Positions 12,082 to 20,313 of a stretch of 64,000 bases of DNA are shown here, piece after piece (position 1 is the first letter of the stretch; every line of letters starts with the position of its first letter). The stretch comes from Polynucleobacter sp. AP-Sving-400A-A2. Lineage in GTDB: Bacteria > Pseudomonadota > Gammaproteobacteria > Burkholderiales > Burkholderiaceae. Below the pieces are notes generated by a model. It saw only the letters and a list, made by a program, of their open reading frames with translations, was not told the origin of the DNA and ran no database searches. The DNA lies in assembly GCF_018688155.1 (NCBI RefSeq), contig NZ_CP061312.1, positions 1,364,001-1,428,000 on the forward strand, in the 5' to 3' direction. The translations under genes and the position numbers were made by a program.

Positions 12082-12396
12082 TTATGCAGGGTTTGACTTA
12101 AGTCCACTTGCAACGACGCTTAAGCGAAGACCAACAGAATGGAGGATTCTATTCATAGTTTCGAGAGTTGGGTTTCCATCATCACTCAAAGACTTAAAAA
12201 GCGTTTTTTCGCCAAGGGCAGCATTACGTGCAACCTCGGCCATGCCATGCGCTTTTGCAACCTGCCTAAGAGCCAGCAATAAAGCAGCCCTGTCTTCAAG
12301 CTCCATTACCGCATCTATGTAGGCTGCAGCCTCCTCAGGATCGAGCAATGATTCCATTAAATTAACTTCGTAGCTCTTATCTCGCTTGACCATCAT
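12082..12396 (-). CDS. Addiction-module antidote protein (HTH, HI1420-like family)
   Basis: A protein of about 104 aa resembling the HTH antidotes usually paired with a RelE/HigB-type toxin. The recognisable core is DPEEAAAYIDAVMEL followed by the HTH region VAKAHGMAEVARNAALGEKTLF and DGNPTLETMNRIL. ATG at 12396 overlaps the stop of the upstream ORF (TAATG) and has GAGG just ahead, so translation is coupled; an upstream ATG at 12414 lies inside the neighbour. No toxin ORF is visible beside it: the upstream partner is a short HicB-like ORF instead. Confidence 0.75.
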   Translation of the reverse strand: MMVKRDKSYEVNLMESLLDPEEAAAYIDAVMELEDRAALLLALRQVAKAHGMAEVARNAALGEKTLFKSLSDDGNPTLETMNRILHSVGLRLSVVASGLKSNPA

Positions 12397-12554
12397 TATC
12401 CTCGACGTTTCCAATCTTTTAAATAGTCTATTGCTTTTTCAATAGCCTCATCAAAACCACCGTCAGCAGCAGAGAAGCAGCCCGGTAAATCCGGAACAAT
12501 AACTCCCCATGCTTTGTCATCTCCACCTAACTCAATTGCAATTGGATATTTCAT
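12396..12554 (-). CDS. Truncated HicB-like antitoxin domain
   Basis: A 52 aa ORF matching only the N-terminal HicB fold (MKYPIAIELGGDD, then GVIVPDLPGCFSAAD). Full HicB proteins continue with more of this domain and a C-terminal DNA-binding part, and pair with HicA; both are missing. The start at 12554 is chosen for its strong Shine-Dalgarno (GGAGGG). An in-frame ATG at 12602 overlaps the comEC stop. It is coupled to the antidote ORF downstream, so the pair could act as a split repressor, or be a decayed toxin-antitoxin locus. Confidence 0.6.
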   Translation of the reverse strand: MKYPIAIELGGDDKAWGVIVPDLPGCFSAADGGFDEAIEKAIDYLKDWKRRG

Positions 12555-12598
12555 CTTCCCTCCTCTAGGCCGATATTTTTTCACACTAGTACCAGCAA

Positions 12599-14314
12599 TC
12601 ATTTACCCACTTCTATCGGAGGGCGATGCCACAGCCTTTGCGCATACCTTCTCTGAAGCAGGGGTTCTTCATTTAACTTGTTTGCTTTATAAAAACTCCA
12701 AACCTGTGCACCAGTAGTTGGTGTTTGATAAAACGGAATATTCATGCTTTGGTATCGGGCGGTGACTGTAGGATGCGGATGGCCGTATCGGTTGCGATAC
12801 CCGTTTTGAGCAAATGCTTCATCAGGACTGAGCGCTGCTAAGAGTTCTTGAGATGAGGATGTTTTGCTACCGTGGTGCGGTGCCATGAATATCAAATTCT
12901 GATTCTTTAAATGATTGAGAGCTGTTTGGGTTAAGCGCTCAGTGATTTCGGCCTCACCCTGCTTCTCTACATCACCTGTTAACCAGAATGAAGTGGTTTG
13001 ATTGCGAACTTCTAGAACGCAACTCACTTCATTAGGCTTTCTGGGATGTTGGTCATCAAAAATTGTGTTTTCATGCGGATGCCATATATGAAACTCCACC
13101 CCATCCCATGACCAGTGCTGACCAAAGCGACAGGGAATAGCGGGTATTTTCCTTTCTTCTAAATTGGCTAGCAATGGATTGGTACTTGGAAGAGATCCCA
13201 TCATGGAGTCGAGGTTAATTTCTTTCAGCAGAGTTGCGGCGCCTCCAATGTGGTCGCTATCACTATGACTAATTACCATGCGATTAATATGATGAATTCC
13301 TCTGCCCCTCAAATACGGCAGGATGATTCTTTGACCAGCATTATCTTTTCCCTGAATAGGTCCGGTGTCGTATAGCAGTTTTTTTGTTTTGGTTTCGATC
13401 AGAACTGCCGTGCCTTGGCCGATATCAAGCACCGTTGCGCGAAACTCGCCTTTTGCCAAATGGTGATTAGTCAGCGGCTGAATAAATAGGGTTGTGCACA
13501 ATAAGAGACCTGCTACTCTTGAGAACCAGCTCTCCTGAATAGCACCAGGACGAATCGCTACGAGGATTCCGATAGTAGATAAGGCTAGCGCCCACGAGTC
13601 AGGCTGGCTAGACCAAGCGATTGACCATTTCCAATTAGCCATCCATGCAAGCATGATTGCCAAGTAGTCCATCGTGGCATGTGCTGGTATCAATAAGCAC
13701 TTACCAATGAAATCAGGCAATAAGGCGCCAGCAATAGCTAGTGGTGTCACGATATAACTCACTACAGGAATAGCAATAGCATTTGCCAGGGGTGAAACAA
13801 TTGAGACTTGATAAAACCAGAACAAGGTTAAGGGTAGAAGTGCAATGGTGACAACCGCTTGAACTCGGCATGCTTCACGGAGCGCTTGAATCACTCTATC
13901 TCTCCAATACACCTCCAGCTCTCTACCGGTAGGCAGTCCGAGCAAACCATCAGAATCCTGCATGGCATACAAAATCGCAGCTACCGCTCCAAACGAAAGC
14001 CAGAAACCCGGCGTATAAGGTGCCATCGGATCGATGACTAGTACAAAAAATAGAGCCCACCACCAGATATCAAATGAGCGAGGATTTCTGCCGGACCATA
14101 AAGCAAAGGCAACTACCCCAACCATATACATCGTTCGCTGCGCTGGAATCTGAAAGCCTGCCAACCACGCATACAAGAAGGCTGTCAAAAAACCTACTGC
14201 AGCCGCGACCTTGCCAACCGGAACCCAAAGTGGCAGAGTGTTGCGACGCCAGAGAAAAGTAGCCAGCATGGCACCAAAACCAGCTAGCATCGTTACATGC
14301 AAACCGGAAATCGA
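12599..14314 (-). pseudogene. comEC: comEC, 3' part (C-terminal 571 codons), separated by an inserted element
   Basis: C-terminal portion of ComEC/Rec2, the inner-membrane channel that takes up single-stranded DNA in natural transformation. It begins inside the conserved ISISGLHV motif of the competence domain, continues through many membrane segments and ends with the metallo-beta-lactamase-like domain (ISHSDSDHIGG, MAPHHGSKTSS). The frame runs on into the element, giving an apparent ATG at 14428, but those first ~38 codons are element DNA. The matching 5' part is at 19529-20313. Joining 19529 to 14312 across the shared TC gives one frame of 832 codons plus stop. Whether this fragment is expressed is unknown. 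Confidence 0.93.
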
Positions 14315-14334
14315 GATTACATGCAACAAATACC
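14301..14334 (-). other. Attachment site (attR-like junction, comEC 3' side)
   Basis: In the comEC sense this reads element arm GGTATTTGTTGCATGTAATC, core TC, then comEC sequence GATTTCCGGTTT encoding the rest of ISISGL. The core TC is 14313-14314. Core assignment comes from symmetry of the two element arms; an alternative shared triplet ATT, four bases away, cannot be excluded by sequence alone. Confidence 0.8.
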
Positions 14335-14509
14335 TGTGATTAGTATCTAAACAGAGACTCAACCTAAAGCAACACGGGGGAGTGGGCAGAGCCACTAAAG
14401 CAAAGTAACAGAACCTTCCTCCATGCACAAAAAGGAGAAATTAGAAAATTGCTTATAAAAATTAAAAATGGAATTAAACTGAGTAAAAACAGTTAAAAGC
14501 ATAAAGATA

Positions 14510-14899
14510 ATGAAAAAAATCATACTAATTGCAATCTTTGCAACCTTGCTTCCTATTCAAGCTAATGCTAGCTGGGTAATTTGGGGAGGGAATGACCAAA
14601 AAGAAGTCTATTTTGAAAATACTAGAGTAGTAAAAAACTTAAAAAGTATTGATTTTTGGATTAAGGTTGTATGGCTCAAGCCATGGGCATCCATTGAAGG
14701 CAAGATGCTTATCTCTAGCATGCAAAAGTATCGTATAGACTGTAAAAATGAGCAGATTGCACTGCTCGCAACAAATGAGTTTGCAGATGCTGAAGCAACT
14801 AAATACATTGGGGAGCAAAAGTTTCCAAATCCTGAATTTAAACATATAGCACCAGGCTCGGATGATGAGTTTTATATGAAGAAGATTTGCAATAGATAA
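14510..14899 (+). CDS. Secreted protein, surface-adhesin E-like domain
   Basis: A 129 aa protein with a clean signal peptide (cleavage after ANA). The mature part, WVIWGGNDQKEVYFENTR to HIAPGSDDEFYMKKIC, follows the pattern of small exported proteins assigned to the Adhesin_E-like family: an opening Trp, two conserved cysteines (IDCKNE and KKIC) and an APGS stretch before the last one. It is the only plus-strand gene of the element and sits at its comEC-3' end, so it is probably cargo. Function is unknown; no strong ribosome binding site is visible. Confidence 0.6.
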   Translation: MKKIILIAIFATLLPIQANASWVIWGGNDQKEVYFENTRVVKNLKSIDFWIKVVWLKPWASIEGKMLISSMQKYRIDCKNEQIALLATNEFADAEATKYIGEQKFPNPEFKHIAPGSDDEFYMKKICNR

Positions 14900-15017
14900 A
14901 GAAAAGCTTTAGGTGCTATTCGCAATATATGCACAGGATACTTCAAGAGTAAGGATAAGTGAGCTATTTAATACTTATTTGTGCTTGCCAAGGATGCCAT
15001 AGTAAAAAACTTAATCA

Positions 15018-15542
15018 TTAGACCATTACTCCATAAACATGATTGGTGCCGAGACTTAACCTATCTCTTAGCGAAAAGAGTGAAAAAAACTTTTCAGCAT
15101 CATATTTTATTTCGCCATAATCAGAACTGAAAAAAGCACCTTCAAACGTATCAATAGACTTACACGTTACAAATAAAGAAGGATAGAATTCAGAAATACT
15201 TGCGTCATAGTCCGTACAAAAATAATTGGTATTACCAGAGCAAAACTCACTATCACTGAGGTTCTTATATGCACCAATCAGAAGACTTCTTATTTTCAAT
15301 GTATTAACTTCACCATAAGGATGCTCCCAGAAAAAATCATCTATCACCTCTTCAAAAAACTTCTTTTCAAAGATTTTTTCTTCATCAAGATGGCTTTCAA
15401 GGACTAGGAATTCGCTATTACGTCCAAATACGGCGACAGCTAAACTCCAGTCTTTAAGCAAAGACCTCTCAAAAGTTTCACCGACCCCATCATCAACTCT
15501 GCCTAGTGAGAGGTATGCAATTCTATTTATAGGCTCAAACAT
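15018..15542 (-). CDS. Unknown protein of the element
   Basis: A 174 aa acidic protein with no signal peptide and no motif I recognise. It has many aromatic residues and a cysteine pair in EFCSGNTNYFC. It begins 12 bp after the stop of the ORF at 15555-15896 on the same strand, so the two look like a gene pair. AT-rich codon use matches the rest of the element. A defence, immunity or regulatory role is possible for such cargo, but nothing in the sequence shows it. Confidence 0.55.
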   Translation of the reverse strand: MFEPINRIAYLSLGRVDDGVGETFERSLLKDWSLAVAVFGRNSEFLVLESHLDEEKIFEKKFFEEVIDDFFWEHPYGEVNTLKIRSLLIGAYKNLSDSEFCSGNTNYFCTDYDASISEFYPSLFVTCKSIDTFEGAFFSSDYGEIKYDAEKFFSLFSLRDRLSLGTNHVYGVMV

Positions 15543-15554
15543 TAAGATGAAATA

Positions 15555-15896
15555 TTAATAAACTTGTTCACCATTGACGAAAACTGTAGTTCCGTCATGA
15601 AAACCACGTACTAAGTCGACCTCATCTTCTGAATTGGCACTCTGTAGTAACTCAAAAAACTTATCGGAAATTTCATCTGCTATCTCTTCGCCATCAGATT
15701 CGGAAACTTTCTTTTTTGTTGAGAAATCTGCTGCTATTGAAAAATATTCATTATCTTCATGCGGTATCAAGCGAATATAAGCTTCAGAAACCTTGCCCAT
15801 CTTTGATGGAAAGTAGTTCCCTTCAAGGTCTTCTCTAGCTGAATCTGCAACGTCCTGCAAACCATATTTCTCTTCTAAGGCTTCAAATGGAGTCAT
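15555..15896 (-). CDS. Unknown small acidic protein of the element
   Basis: A 113 aa, strongly acidic protein (acidic residues outnumber basic ones more than two to one), with no hydrophobic segment and no recognised domain. The C-terminus (GFHDGTTVFVNGEQVY) looks like a small beta hairpin. It is the first member of a tight pair with 15018-15542 (12-bp gap). Acidity and small size would suit a DNA mimic, immunity protein or antitoxin, but this is speculation. Confidence 0.5.
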   Translation of the reverse strand: MTPFEALEEKYGLQDVADSAREDLEGNYFPSKMGKVSEAYIRLIPHEDNEYFSIAADFSTKKKVSESDGEEIADEISDKFFELLQSANSEDEVDLVRGFHDGTTVFVNGEQVY

Positions 15897-15950
15897 TTAG
15901 TGCTCACTTTCTTCGTTGGTTTTTAATTAAAACTTCTCATGAAACAACAA

Positions 15951-16454
15951 TTAATTAATCTTAGCTATCGGCAGTAATTCAATGCTATTGGCTCGATAGA
16001 CTGCCTGCCAATCTGCTCTATCAGTCTTGGGTAACAATTTTTCCTCATCCCTGGTAATCCAAGCTATCTCAGCCTGACTTACGACTCGCAGTATTTCCTC
16101 GGCAGTTGGCACAGGCTTTAGTTTAAGTAAGGCTCTTCTGATATCGACCACAGGTTTAGCATGCTCCCAATATAAATCTCCACCCCCAACCCATGCCTTA
16201 GGTGTCCTATATCTTTGTTTCGTTAAGTCACCCAGATTGTTAGCATCTGCAATTTTTTGAGCATTTACCGATACTCTGGGCTCTATAAAATATTCCAGAT
16301 GGCGAATTGCCGTATCAAACATTTTCTTATGCCAAAGCATCTCAGACTCTGTTTGGTCTTTTTGATTAACCAATTTAAGTAAATTTTGAATTTCTAAAAT
16401 CACACTGCTCGGTAGCTCTCTTACGGGCATAGGAATAAGTTCAGATATTAACAA
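15951..16454 (-). CDS. Unknown protein of the element
   Basis: A 167 aa soluble protein that I cannot place in a family. Residues around 90-130 (NLGDLTKQRYRTPKAW, then DLYWEHAKPVVDIRRALL) look like a conserved core. No helix-turn-helix, metal site or membrane segment is evident. It lies 123 bp downstream of the polymerase-like gene on the same strand, with a long inverted repeat in the gap. Confidence 0.5.
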   Translation of the reverse strand: MLISELIPMPVRELPSSVILEIQNLLKLVNQKDQTESEMLWHKKMFDTAIRHLEYFIEPRVSVNAQKIADANNLGDLTKQRYRTPKAWVGGGDLYWEHAKPVVDIRRALLKLKPVPTAEEILRVVSQAEIAWITRDEEKLLPKTDRADWQAVYRANSIELLPIAKIN

Positions 16455-16500
16455 TAGCCTAATTTAGCCTACTTTCAGGAATGCTTATATTTTATATTAT

Positions 16501-16560
16501 GAAATTTGCAGCACATAAGCAATAACTAGTTGCGAAAAGTAGTTTTTTGCTGCGAAATTC
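16501..16560. repeat. 60-bp inverted repeat between element genes
   Basis: Arms GAAATTTGCAGCA (16501-16513) and TGCTGCGAAATTC (16548-16560) are inverted copies matching at 11 of 13 positions. The motif GCGAAA also occurs twice inside (around 16532 and 16552). It lies downstream of the polymerase-like gene. It could be an origin-type, regulatory or terminator structure; there is no T run to favour a terminator. Confidence 0.5.
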
Positions 16561-16577
16561 CCTGTTCAGGTCAAATA

Positions 16578-17951
16578 TCATTTACATGAATCTATTTTAA
16601 TAGCTGGCTTAAATTTCACATCTAGCACTGCCATCCAAGCCTTTTCTAATGCTTTTTTGGCTTTGCTCTTATGTCTACGCTGAACATAAATAGCATCATG
16701 TATTGGTAGTGAAGGGATGTCTTGTTCAATTAGGCTGAGCATAGCCTTCATCAGAATATCCCCTTCTAATCCTTGTAGATAAATTCCATTTCCTTTAAAG
16801 AACTTGCTGTAAAGGATTGGGTAGTCAGATTCAATTGCACTCCAAATAGCATCTCTTTCTGGGTAGGTCAAAATAAAGTCTGTCACATACCAATCTTTCT
16901 CATCGACATCAGGCTTTAATGAGATTCTTCTATCACTAGCACCAATCGACCTAGTAACTAAAAACTTCACTTGCTCCCTAGATGTATTGGATTTGGCAGC
17001 AATATCATCGTAGAAGTTCGCTGGTAGTTTCTTGTTTTCCAATGCCATTAGCATTCTTGGATGATTGGCTGATAAGTCTACTTCTACTACTGGTTTTCCA
17101 TTCAAGAGGGTATTAATTCTGACCCTTGCACGACGGTCAGGAAGACCCTGTAGACGCACATAAACACGTCCGCCTTGCATGGGGTCTTCATAGCTAAATA
17201 TGCGTTTAACAGGTGATTTAAGGGCGTAGGTGACATCTTTTAAATACTCATTAATACGCTTTAATCCAGCTCTGTCTGGGTGGTCTGGTAGTAGCTCTGG
17301 CGAGTAAGAACGTCTTCCCATAGTATGGTTCTGGGAAGGACTGTGAACTGGGTTTTGAGGATTGTTTACTGCAACTAGACCCAGTTTATCTTTCTTCTTA
17401 GCCTTCTTCTCTAGCTTTGGTTTATAGATAATTAAGTGTTCATCATCACCCAAATACTCTTCTTGTATTTCATAAATTAAAGGCAGCAATAGTAGCTCTA
17501 ACTTCTTCGTAGGCTCATAGCTGTTTACTTCTTGTTTTATCTTGCTACCTTTCTTAAAGACCAGATACCTATTCTGTATTAAGGCATTAGTTACAGTATT
17601 TACTGCTCTTAATGTAAACCGAAGTTTCTTATACGTTGCTTCTTTGGTATAGTCCTTGTCCCTACCTGACAGAGACAATCTATGTCTACTCAGAACACTC
17701 ACCACTAGATTACAGATTATTAATCTAAAGGCATGATTTACCATAATTTGAGCATCTTTCCTAGCTTGTTTAAGTAGTGGGTCTAATTCATTCCTAAGTG
17801 CTTGAATGGTGCTTTTAGCAAAGCCTATATTCTTCATTGCTATGGGTCTAGGTAACTCACCTTTTGCATAGGTCAGAGCCATGAGCTTTTTAAGTTCCTT
17901 AACAGGAATACCTGTTTTATCGCTAGCTTCTTGCAGGGATTGAGTGGTCAT
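16578..17951 (-). CDS. Family-A DNA polymerase-like protein of the element
   Basis: A 457 aa protein whose C-terminal half shows, in order, three motifs in the arrangement of family-A (Pol I/T7-type) polymerases: motif A-like VEVDLSANHPRML (Asp 292), motif B-like R325-x3-K329 in REQVKFLVTRSIGAS, and motif C-like LPIHDAIYV (His 418, Asp 419). An ordered stretch before motif A (VRLQGLPDRRARVRIN) binds the region together. The N-terminal 220 residues are helical and basic, with no exonuclease motifs I recognise. Similar proteins occur in other proteobacteria as hypothetical ORFs. The polymerase assignment is my motif-based inference, not a family match. Confidence 0.6.
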   Translation of the reverse strand: MTTQSLQEASDKTGIPVKELKKLMALTYAKGELPRPIAMKNIGFAKSTIQALRNELDPLLKQARKDAQIMVNHAFRLIICNLVVSVLSRHRLSLSGRDKDYTKEATYKKLRFTLRAVNTVTNALIQNRYLVFKKGSKIKQEVNSYEPTKKLELLLLPLIYEIQEEYLGDDEHLIIYKPKLEKKAKKKDKLGLVAVNNPQNPVHSPSQNHTMGRRSYSPELLPDHPDRAGLKRINEYLKDVTYALKSPVKRIFSYEDPMQGGRVYVRLQGLPDRRARVRINTLLNGKPVVEVDLSANHPRMLMALENKKLPANFYDDIAAKSNTSREQVKFLVTRSIGASDRRISLKPDVDEKDWYVTDFILTYPERDAIWSAIESDYPILYSKFFKGNGIYLQGLEGDILMKAMLSLIEQDIPSLPIHDAIYVQRRHKSKAKKALEKAWMAVLDVKFKPAIKIDSCK

Positions 17952-18010
17952 TTATATCTTAATAAGTAGTGAATAAATACCATTAATTCAAACACAGTTT
18001 AGGGTGCTTT

Positions 18011-19489
18011 TCAGGCATACACGTTGCTTAAATCAATCTTTTCCTCCAACATAGTGCCGTCATGCCCAGTAACGATAAGACTTCTCTCGTTAAAGTTAAT
18101 CGCTATCTTCCTGACCACCTGCTTGAAGCACTTATTGTTAAGCAGCCCTTCATTAAGCAAAGCCTTTAAACCACCTTCAACCTCTCTAGCAATGAACGGT
18201 CGCGATAGCATCTTTAACCTAGCTTCTTCAGCCTTCAACTCATCGTATTCAAGCATCTTTGCTGTTAGCTCCTGCCTTAATGTAGGGCTGCCCTTATTTA
18301 CCTTAATGCTGTCTTGTAGTTCTATGATGTCGTCACTCAAGAAGCTAATCGCTTCACCAACTTGCCAAAGCTCACCACCAATATCATCCTTTGGGGGAAC
18401 ATATTGGTAACCCATCAGAGCCATTAAGACCGCCTTAACAATCTTGTCGTAACTAATCGACTGATAGGAACAAGCACTTCTAGCACCCATGCTGTTCGCA
18501 CAAACTAGAGTTCTCCAGATATTCTTAGTGCCATCTTGCCTAACTCGTCCACTCTTACCACTTCGTGTCGCTGTAGCCCCACAAACCGCACAAACGCACA
18601 GTCCACTCAATGGATGAACGCTGTGACTGTCTCTGGTGCTCTTTGAAGTTACACCTTGAAACCTAGTCTTAATCCAGAGTTTCTCAGAGATAACTCTAGG
18701 GTAATAATTCTCATGCCTTACACCATCAGCAGTATTCAGCACCCCTAGTACGGCTTCAGAATTCAACACCTTCTTAACGCTGGATATTCCCCACTTAGCA
18801 GCCTTGGTTGTCGGAGGCTCAACACTTTCATTATTAAGCAGCGTAGCAATCCTTTGTCCACCCAAACCATCAGCTGATAACTTAAAGATTTTCTTTACTA
18901 TTGCAACCTTATCAGCGATAGATTTAGTCCTGTCTTCCTTAACAATCCAGAAAGGCACTCTCTTTGTAAGCTGTACACCATCAGCAACCCTAAGCATCTT
19001 TTGTCGCCAAGCTCTACTTACTCTGTCTGCTTTCGTTGCAGATTCCTCATGAGCTCTAGACATCAGCATGATTGCAAACATCAAACTCATACCGCTATCT
19101 TCATCCATCGACACGCTGGTATAGACCTTATTGTCATTAAGTGTCACGACAACAATACCTTCATCAATCAAGGCACTAAGTTGAGCCAAAGCTTTTCTGG
19201 GTGTCTGTCTGCTTAATCGGTCTAAGGACTCAACCAAGAGATATGAACCTCTCTCAATCTTCCCATCCTCAACTAAGCGGTTAAACACTCCCAATGAGCC
19301 TTTGGTCTGAGCAACCCCTTTGTAGGCACTCAACCCTTCATCAGTAAGCTGTAGGCTTGTGTCCAGTTCTAAACCTAGCTGAGGATTACGCTCTATGTAC
19401 TCAGAAGCTAAGTCTTTCTGCCTGCGAATACTGTCACCCTTAGCCTGCTTCTCAGAGCTAAATCTAATGTACGAATAAGCAATTGGCAT
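18011..19489 (-). CDS. Large serine recombinase (integrase) of the element
   Basis: A 492 aa site-specific recombinase. The N-terminal catalytic domain has the nucleophile in YIRFSSEKQ (Ser 11) and the arginine motif SLDRLSR (residues 88-94). A recombinase domain follows (about 175-285), then a zinc ribbon with Cys 298/300/303, Cys 330 and Cys 340, and a coiled coil near 375-420. Start at 19489 has AAGGGA upstream. The gene begins 20 bp from the element arm at 19509-19528, typical for an integrase beside its attachment site. It should catalyse integration into, and with a directionality factor excision from, comEC. Confidence 0.93.
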   Translation of the reverse strand: MPIAYSYIRFSSEKQAKGDSIRRQKDLASEYIERNPQLGLELDTSLQLTDEGLSAYKGVAQTKGSLGVFNRLVEDGKIERGSYLLVESLDRLSRQTPRKALAQLSALIDEGIVVVTLNDNKVYTSVSMDEDSGMSLMFAIMLMSRAHEESATKADRVSRAWRQKMLRVADGVQLTKRVPFWIVKEDRTKSIADKVAIVKKIFKLSADGLGGQRIATLLNNESVEPPTTKAAKWGISSVKKVLNSEAVLGVLNTADGVRHENYYPRVISEKLWIKTRFQGVTSKSTRDSHSVHPLSGLCVCAVCGATATRSGKSGRVRQDGTKNIWRTLVCANSMGARSACSYQSISYDKIVKAVLMALMGYQYVPPKDDIGGELWQVGEAISFLSDDIIELQDSIKVNKGSPTLRQELTAKMLEYDELKAEEARLKMLSRPFIAREVEGGLKALLNEGLLNNKCFKQVVRKIAINFNERSLIVTGHDGTMLEEKIDLSNVYA

Positions 19490-19508
19490 AAATGTTTCCC
19501 TTATGATG

Positions 19509-19545
19509 GGTATATCTTACATACAATTGATATGAGGTGTCCAAT
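19509..19545 (-). other. Attachment site (attL-like junction, comEC 5' side)
   Basis: In the comEC sense this reads comEC sequence GGACACCTCATA, core TC (19529-19530), then element arm AATTGTATGTAAGATATACC. The comEC frame ends seven codons past the junction in element DNA (stop at 19501-19503). Confidence 0.8.
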
Positions 19546-20313
19546 TCCGGTTGCATTAAATACCCGCCAATCATCTTGGTCGATTGCATTTTGATCACCC
19601 ATCACCAAAGCTGCAATTACTCCACCATAGCGCGCATCTCTGGGTAATAGGCGCTGAATCTTTTGCCTTAACTTCCAACGTTGATACTCCATAGCTAGAG
19701 CAAATTCTGTAAAGGCAATATCTTTCTCAAGGATTAACTTTCCTGACCTAACTGATCCACTGGCGCCAAAGTCTTGATGGAAGGACCAACGCTCAAAATC
19801 AAAAGTATGGGGATTGAGGGATCCATAAGGTCTTTTGATTTTGACCTTCAATTCCCAACGCTGACCTGGAATGACTTCGGGCACATCCTGAGGATTACGC
19901 CATGCGGGCTGCCAACTCAAATAGATCTGCGGAGGAAATGATTCAATCGAATCTTTACCTGAGAATGCCTGATCTACCTCAAAAGAAAACTTTGCACCAC
20001 TGGAAGAGCTCTGTGGCAAAGAATTGACTCTTCCCTCAAGCACAAGGTCTTTGCCTTCATGCTCGATTGAAAGGACATTAGCCAGTCGACTTTGTGCGTA
20101 ATTTGCATTCCAAGAAAACCCTAAGGTGAAACTACAAACTGCTATCAATACAATATTTGTACGAGGATATTGGATCGATGCGTAATTGATATAAATACCC
20201 AACAAGGAGATCGTGATCGATGCTATACAAATCCAGCCCCAATACTCTGGCACAGCAGGTAAAAATAGAAGTAGCGATCCCCCGGCGATAAACGCCGCAA
20301 TATTGGTGCGCAA
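19529..20313 (-). pseudogene. comEC: comEC, 5' part (N-terminal 261 codons), separated by an inserted element
   Basis: N-terminal portion of ComEC: three hydrophobic segments near the start, the DUF4131-like soluble domain (about residues 60-200), then MGDQNAIDQDDWRVFNATGIGHLIS leading into the competence domain. After the junction it reads seven element codons and stops at 19501. The start used is TTG at 20313, just after the tatD stop. Without the C-terminal channel and nuclease-like domains this fragment should not support DNA uptake. Rejoining with 12599-14314 would restore the full protein. Confidence 0.93.

Follow-up and report, generated by a model that had tools for sequence, protein, structure and literature searches.

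Integration of mobile genetic elements into competence genes, including comEC of streptococci, is already known. Phi1207.3/Tn1207.3 and Phi10394.4 are described as integrating site-specifically in comEC of Streptococcus at a GA dinucleotide, which is duplicated at their ends (PMC4260502), while the prophage VAI-C_pp_2 was found in comEC of Variovorax (PMC9658991). Disruption of comEC by transposons is also mentioned (PMC12637031) and has been reported for Piscirickettsia (PMC12955456). Other mobile elements disrupt comYC, comFA and comM (PMC4774983, PMC11472951), the Listeria comK prophages are named as competence-gene insertions, and insertion in comEC is stated to block transformation, in connection with the argument that an element thereby avoids deletion (PMC4774983). 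Phage satellites such as PICIs, finally, measure 7-20 kb (PMC13376191, PMC10111431). The above follows the accessible portions of the cited papers. Literature searches on competence or comEC in Polynucleobacter, and on comEC together with serine recombinases, returned no title on the former topic or on the element family described below, most subscription journals being outside the coverage of these searches. What is new here is the host group, i.e., the abundant freshwater genus Polynucleobacter, and a family of small elements.

The window analysed here, i.e., the whole 64,000-bp stretch G000:C1:1364001-1428000, derives from a Polynucleobacter genome (G000) that consists of a single contig of 2.03 Mb. 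A 5,216-bp element interrupts its comEC gene inside a single codon, with copies of the dinucleotide TC located at 14313-14314 and 19529-19530 on the minus strand. The 5' part of the gene (N-half, 19529..20313, minus strand) encodes a DUF4131 domain and positions 1-28 of the PF03772 (Competence) profile, while the 3' part (C-half, 12599..14314, minus strand) encodes PF03772 from profile position 22 and a metallo-beta-lactamase domain. The N-half frame (ORF 19501-20313, minus strand) terminates within the element at 19501, 8 codons beyond the core, and the C-half frame is open up to 14428, running through the right attachment site (ORF 12599-14428, minus strand). A GC fraction of 0.39 was found for the element versus 0.46 for comEC. 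When the flanks are joined at the TC, the motif LISISGLHV and a ComEC of 832 residues (counted from a TTG start) are obtained, and this protein resembles the ComEC of the nearest element-free relatives. A preliminary description of the locus had proposed both the split and the motif-restoring, 832-residue join, and each is borne out, the former by two halves that share PF03772 across TC copies 5,216 bp apart, the latter by the computed join. The splitting of comEC at a TC core by a serine-recombinase element is supported at the sequence level. Directly downstream of comEC, ORFs for a HicB-like antitoxin and a HI1420-type antidote are present (window positions 12082-12602, minus strand).

The explanation that best accounts for this arrangement, and which is considered very probable, is that a small satellite-like element integrates by means of its own large serine recombinase (LSR) at the TC within the LISISGLHV-encoding region of comEC, from where excision would restore the reading frame. 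The predicted integrase of the element is the product of the gene at 18011..19489 (minus strand), an intact LSR of 492 residues with Resolvase, Recombinase and zinc ribbon domains and a match to the phrog_95 integrase family (4e-63). Comparison of the junctions places the attR core TC, between element and C-half, at 14313..14314 and the attL core TC, between N-half and element, at 19529..19530, while pairing of the arms assigns 14315..14344 and 19499..19528 (all minus strand) as the element-side arms of attR and attL, respectively, which represent the two arms of an inverted repeat in attP. At attL, wobble bases to the left of the TC vary according to the host, and the bases to its right are shared within element groups; at attR this pattern is reversed, with the element side on the left and the host side on the right. 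The dyad axis falls exactly between T and C, where 66% of bases are paired compared to 21-37% at 15 other axes (five elements pooled), the arms being complementary at 16-20 of 30 bases in each of the five elements (shuffle p 5e-5 to 1.7e-3). Little palindromic character is seen in the unoccupied comEC site, with matches at 3-8 of 20 bases. Inverted arms centred on TC fit an LSR with a TC core and are to be expected from recombination by such an enzyme. The attR arm pattern was detected in five of 186 genomes, each time at comEC and with no hit for a reversed control (the arm variants of the window and of genome G050 fall outside this pattern). A 2-bp shared core, taken alone, fits a target duplication as well as a crossover core, and a transposition event that duplicated 2 bp of the target, or else a misassembly, was considered as an alternative; however, the genome is a single contig, the same site is used in eight genomes, the element-side arms are conserved and inverted about the core, an LSR lies at the element end, and no transposase is present among the six ORFs examined. 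This alternative is consequently regarded as extremely improbable, and IS-type transposition and assembly error were both rejected on account of the shared site, the inverted arms, the LSR and the missing transposase.

Across 186 genomes of the genus, a PF03772 match was obtained in 161 and none in 25 (13 of the 144 high-quality genomes). The PF03772-positive set, as read from these matches, comprises 153 genomes in which comEC is continuous at the site, seven in which the site is occupied (G000, G093, G105, G110, G146, G176 and G180) and one (G051) in which it has been lost. An eighth occupied genome, G151, was identified although it lacks a PF03772 match, and an element is thus located at the same TC, within the first Ser codon of LISISGLHV, in eight of the 186 genomes, with variable cargo. 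Both flanks are available for six of these, while G151 and G176 show the N-half side only. Element lengths are 5,216 bp in the window, 11,720 bp in G093, 15,141 bp in G105 and 8,523 bp in G146, and a related recombinase is present in seven of the eight. The exception is G110, whose site is occupied but in which no related LSR was matched; its attL arm differs, no LSR was found at the N-half end, and a contig break separates the two ends. An arsenic-type cassette (ArsR-like HTH, LMWPc, SBF and FMN reductase) directly follows the comEC N-half of this genome (L068 10252-13843). As judged from these sequence comparisons, the observation is broader than first claimed, extending to several Polynucleobacter species at the same site.

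The comparison with element-free relatives, which had been proposed at the outset, is provided by the uninterrupted site of the 153 genomes. Of the 59 uninterrupted loci that were read, two encode shorter products, of 586 and 748 residues, and the remaining 57 encode 828-867 residues. GHLISISGLHV does not vary among the 43 distinct sequences that these loci comprise; its first Ser is encoded by TCN in 41 of them and by AGC in two. The nearest relatives of the window genome, G074, G071, G014 and G011, are uninterrupted, with C-half identities of 89-91%. A search of a database clustered at 90% found no uninterrupted ComEC of the same species; the best matches covered 88-100% of the query at 89-91% identity. 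In G051, G031, G036 and G037 (L077-L080) comEC is broken and no LSR of the window-element family was found; the latter three carry no element at the site.

In all six genomes for which both flanks are available, a join at the shared TC preserves the frame and yields a full-length product (844, 828, 828, 841, 829 and 815 residues from stop to stop), which is more than would be expected by chance. The earlier prediction that precise excision would restore the frame is supported. The attR sequences of these genomes also invite the reading that the split gene still works: all six contain TTG-CAY-(TTA/GTA)-ATC-TCN in frame with the C-half (as read from the alignment), so that the C-half could be translated from the TTG, with Met-His-(Leu/Val)-Ile-Ser preceding ISGLHV, and assemble with the N-half, and the ORF lists indeed start the C-half at TTG in G093, G105, G110, G146 and G180. 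The bases that contain the TTG, however, belong to the attP inverted repeat as part of one of its arms, which accounts for them; the same bases recur in G050, in a different target gene, and the break falls inside the Competence domain, making this reading very unlikely. Since the N-half frame of the window runs for just 8 codons beyond the core and the N-terminal domain is missing from the C-half, ComEC is inferred to be non-functional, and the uptake channel is likely to be off while the element is integrated.

Related LSRs were located at nine places in eight of the 186 genomes, seven of these places being at comEC. The second LSR of G146, which is 45% identical, lies inside an amino acid permease gene, while a remnant of an LSR in G050, with 93% identity over 336 residues, is found inside another gene, which we take to be of the BKACE type. 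The latter remnant is likewise positioned at a TC that is followed by a stretch similar to that in comEC. This G050 locus (L076 7359-9660), with its truncated LSR and a FkbM methyltransferase gene, represents an alternative attachment site. Over 1,581 nt, the LSR genes of G176 and G180 share 98.1% identity, in contrast to 49.1% for the upstream neighbour proteins of these hosts and 65.8% of bases for their comEC N-halves; such similarity in very distant hosts points to recent horizontal spread. In a tree of 101 LSRs those of the genus form one clade, with a support of 100 when the permease LSR is included and 96 when it is not, and the comEC label (10 rows) undergoes five changes compared to 9.7 in shuffles. 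At least four of the five changes are forced by starred branches, and one corresponds to the other target in G050. Public genome and metagenome sets contain many related LSRs, with 171 proteins at E <= 1e-60 and identities of 39-94% among the best 120 of these. Neither 93 phage records nor 47 plasmid records contained a close copy of the window LSR, identities being below 60% throughout. Within the host family, LSR relatives occur in 19 of 398 genomes, 15 of which are outside the genus, and comEC was not found within the ~1.5-kb flanks of the relatives in this search.

Three of 74 LSR loci from outside the genus (L113 from Variovorax, L138 from a Verrucomicrobiia MAG and L144 from a proteobacterium MAG) directly adjoin a comEC fragment, compared to an expectation of ~0.04 by length alone (a rough estimate); no such neighbour was seen in 24 viral loci. 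Their LSRs fall outside the genus clade in the tree, which was obtained with a quick method and in which these branches are long. The break occurs at or near SISGLH in L113 (9860-11760) and L138 (9850-10050), and further upstream in L144 (3200-3640), with L138 and L144 showing one side of comEC only. At the far end of L113 ~70 comEC codons are absent, and this locus may therefore be decayed. These cases hint that other LSRs target comEC independently. A wider proposal, i.e., that SISGLH is a convergent docking site for unrelated LSR lineages, that small satellites repeatedly and independently silence DNA uptake, and that precise excision would render competence in natural freshwater populations reversible and element-controlled, is put forward as speculation and with considerable doubt.

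In addition to the LSR, the window element encodes a 129-residue cargo protein of the Surface-adhesin protein E family (Adhesin_E, PF16747; 14510..14899, plus strand), proteins of 174, 113 and 167 residues with no assigned family (15018..15542, 15555..15896 and 15951..16454, respectively, all minus strand), and a Pol I-like protein of 457 residues (16578..17951, minus strand). The latter belongs to phrog_4756 and its assignment derives from motifs and from a remote fold match to family A DNA polymerases. Its structural model has a pLDDT of 76, and all 50 PDB matches listed are of the Pol I type, albeit remote (best E 1.1e-3, TM 0.23-0.29 by query). Among viral structures 18 matched at E <= 0.001, a few of them named as DNA polymerase and the best being uncharacterized; a phage protein named DNA polymerase matched the model at E 5.6e-12, with better matches uncharacterized or unnamed. 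The scored candidates included 198 homologues, and D292 (VDLSANHPRM) and D419 (PIHDA) are invariant in 47 sequences (46 relatives and the window protein), presumably as the catalytic carboxylates of family A polymerase motifs A and C. The protein is likely a replication protein of the element.

Other members of the family carry different genes. A PriCT_2/AAA_25 primase-helicase is encoded by the G093 and G146 elements, with look-alikes recognised by eye in G105 and G180, while family searches identified a D5 primase in the G151 element and an HTH regulator among the genes of other members. The G093 element furthermore encodes an Mrr-type endonuclease and a protein with a weak small-terminase match (phrog_309, 4.2e-8; GP3_package, 0.0026, below its cut-off), and that of G146 a NOV_C protein. 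In G151 (L075 3437-7047) an ABC transporter gene and two neighbouring ORFs with no Pfam match were observed as cargo. The second element of G146 (L071 2101-9904), which occupies the permease site, combines a 688-residue primase resembling (by eye) that of G093 with a different LSR, which suggests module exchange. No phage structural gene, terminase, capsid or transposase gene was found in the six ORFs of the window element using Pfam and PHROGs, nor any PADLOC defence model in the four window ORFs examined. Given that these six ORFs include no terminase or capsid gene, the satellite label is weakly held and is borrowed from relatives.

Of the four elements measured, that of the window is the shortest. 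No excision factor was recognised in it, other species have a disrupted comEC or none, and G050 retains a truncated LSR. These facts would suit an immobile remnant, in which the element can no longer leave and comEC, now a pseudogene, is set to decay. Against this stand the intact three-domain LSR, an intact 457-residue protein whose polymerase motifs are conserved with its 46 relatives, intact att arms and undecayed comEC halves, and the remnant interpretation is accordingly considered unlikely. Both comEC halves of G000 are free of frameshift, stop or other decay, and the dN/dS of this gene against the four nearest empty alleles shown is 0.115-0.142, slightly above the mean of 0.100 (sd 0.016) for 32 pairs of empty alleles with similar dS. 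An undecayed comEC is equally compatible with a young insertion and with repeated excision.

The preliminary description had gone further in proposing that excision turns competence on. In the corresponding interpretation, a regulated competence switch (active lysogeny), precise excision triggered by the host or the element restores ComEC under certain conditions, as would be in keeping with the exactly restorable frame in six of six genomes, with the intact comEC halves and their dN/dS, and with the retention of other competence genes: the open frames of DprA (PF02481) and of a ComEA-like HHH_3 protein (the ComEA name being derived from the HHH_3 family alone) do not differ in length between G000 and three empty relatives. 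G180 gave no DprA match. The same picture would, however, be expected of any element recently inserted by a site-specific recombinase, and carriers are sporadic (eight of 186) with no empty allele found in the same species. Furthermore, a pattern fitting six arm variants with up to three mismatches detected no attP junction in the 186 assemblies, and none was present in viral_contigs, where a narrow pattern was followed by the pattern fitting six arm variants. The attR arm pattern also gave no match in viral_contigs, in a narrow form that misses the arm variant of the window. With neither the excised junction nor an excision factor detected, the claim of regulated excision is not supported, and a regulated switch was set aside as the main reading; a host-serving switch is possible, and its regulated form is judged improbable. 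As no excised junction and no close phage or plasmid copy of the LSR was found, mobility is inferred from relatives.

Returning to the favoured explanation of integration by the element's own LSR, the recombinase would insert the element at the TC of the codon for the first Ser in LISISGLHV, leaving ComEC non-functional. After excision, for which a directionality factor would be needed, the element may replicate with the help of the Pol I-like protein, and other members carry primase-helicases. Two benefits could be obtained from this target, i.e., the conserved motif would offer a dependable attachment site, and the block of transformation would keep recombination with imported DNA from deleting the element; together they are the most likely payoff of comEC targeting. 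The integrated elements probably disable a process that could delete them. The fact that comEC is also broken or missing in the absence of an element elsewhere in the genus leaves the anti-deletion benefit as a proposal. Small elements that home to one comEC codon would allow the hypothesis that mobile elements disable transformation to escape deletion to be examined in nature and in non-pathogens, and the family supplies serine recombinases with mapped core and att sites.

The Listeria comK prophage is known for a serine recombinase and for regulated excision on demand, and the parallel drawn to it in the preliminary description stands in part. Target choice and enzyme class agree, as in both cases a competence gene is interrupted in a restorable manner following single-site insertion by a serine recombinase; the comK element, however, is a full prophage in a regulator gene with reported regulated excision, whereas the six ORFs of the window element include no phage structural gene. 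Variovorax belongs, like Polynucleobacter, to the Burkholderiales, and VAI-C_pp_2 shares with the present elements the use of comEC of such a bacterium as integration site, while being, in the accessible account, a 42-kb prophage with a tyrosine integrase and another att sequence. PICIs resemble these elements in having an integrase and replication genes, attL/attR flanks, variable cargo and, in the sources available, no structural gene found; the window element is smaller than their 7-20 kb, uses a serine recombinase and has no packaging gene found in the window. The mobile elements in comYC, comFA and comM differ in gene, host and integrase, and are alike, as far as the accessible texts describe them, in a target position conserved across species and in the proposed benefit of avoiding deletion by transformation. 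Phi1207.3/Tn1207.3 and Phi10394.4 are, according to the available excerpts, streptococcal prophages of 52-59 kb with resistance cargo, in contrast to Polynucleobacter elements of 5-15 kb in which no structural gene was found, and the likeness between them consists of comEC as the target and of one dinucleotide, GA being TC on the other strand (compared by dinucleotide).
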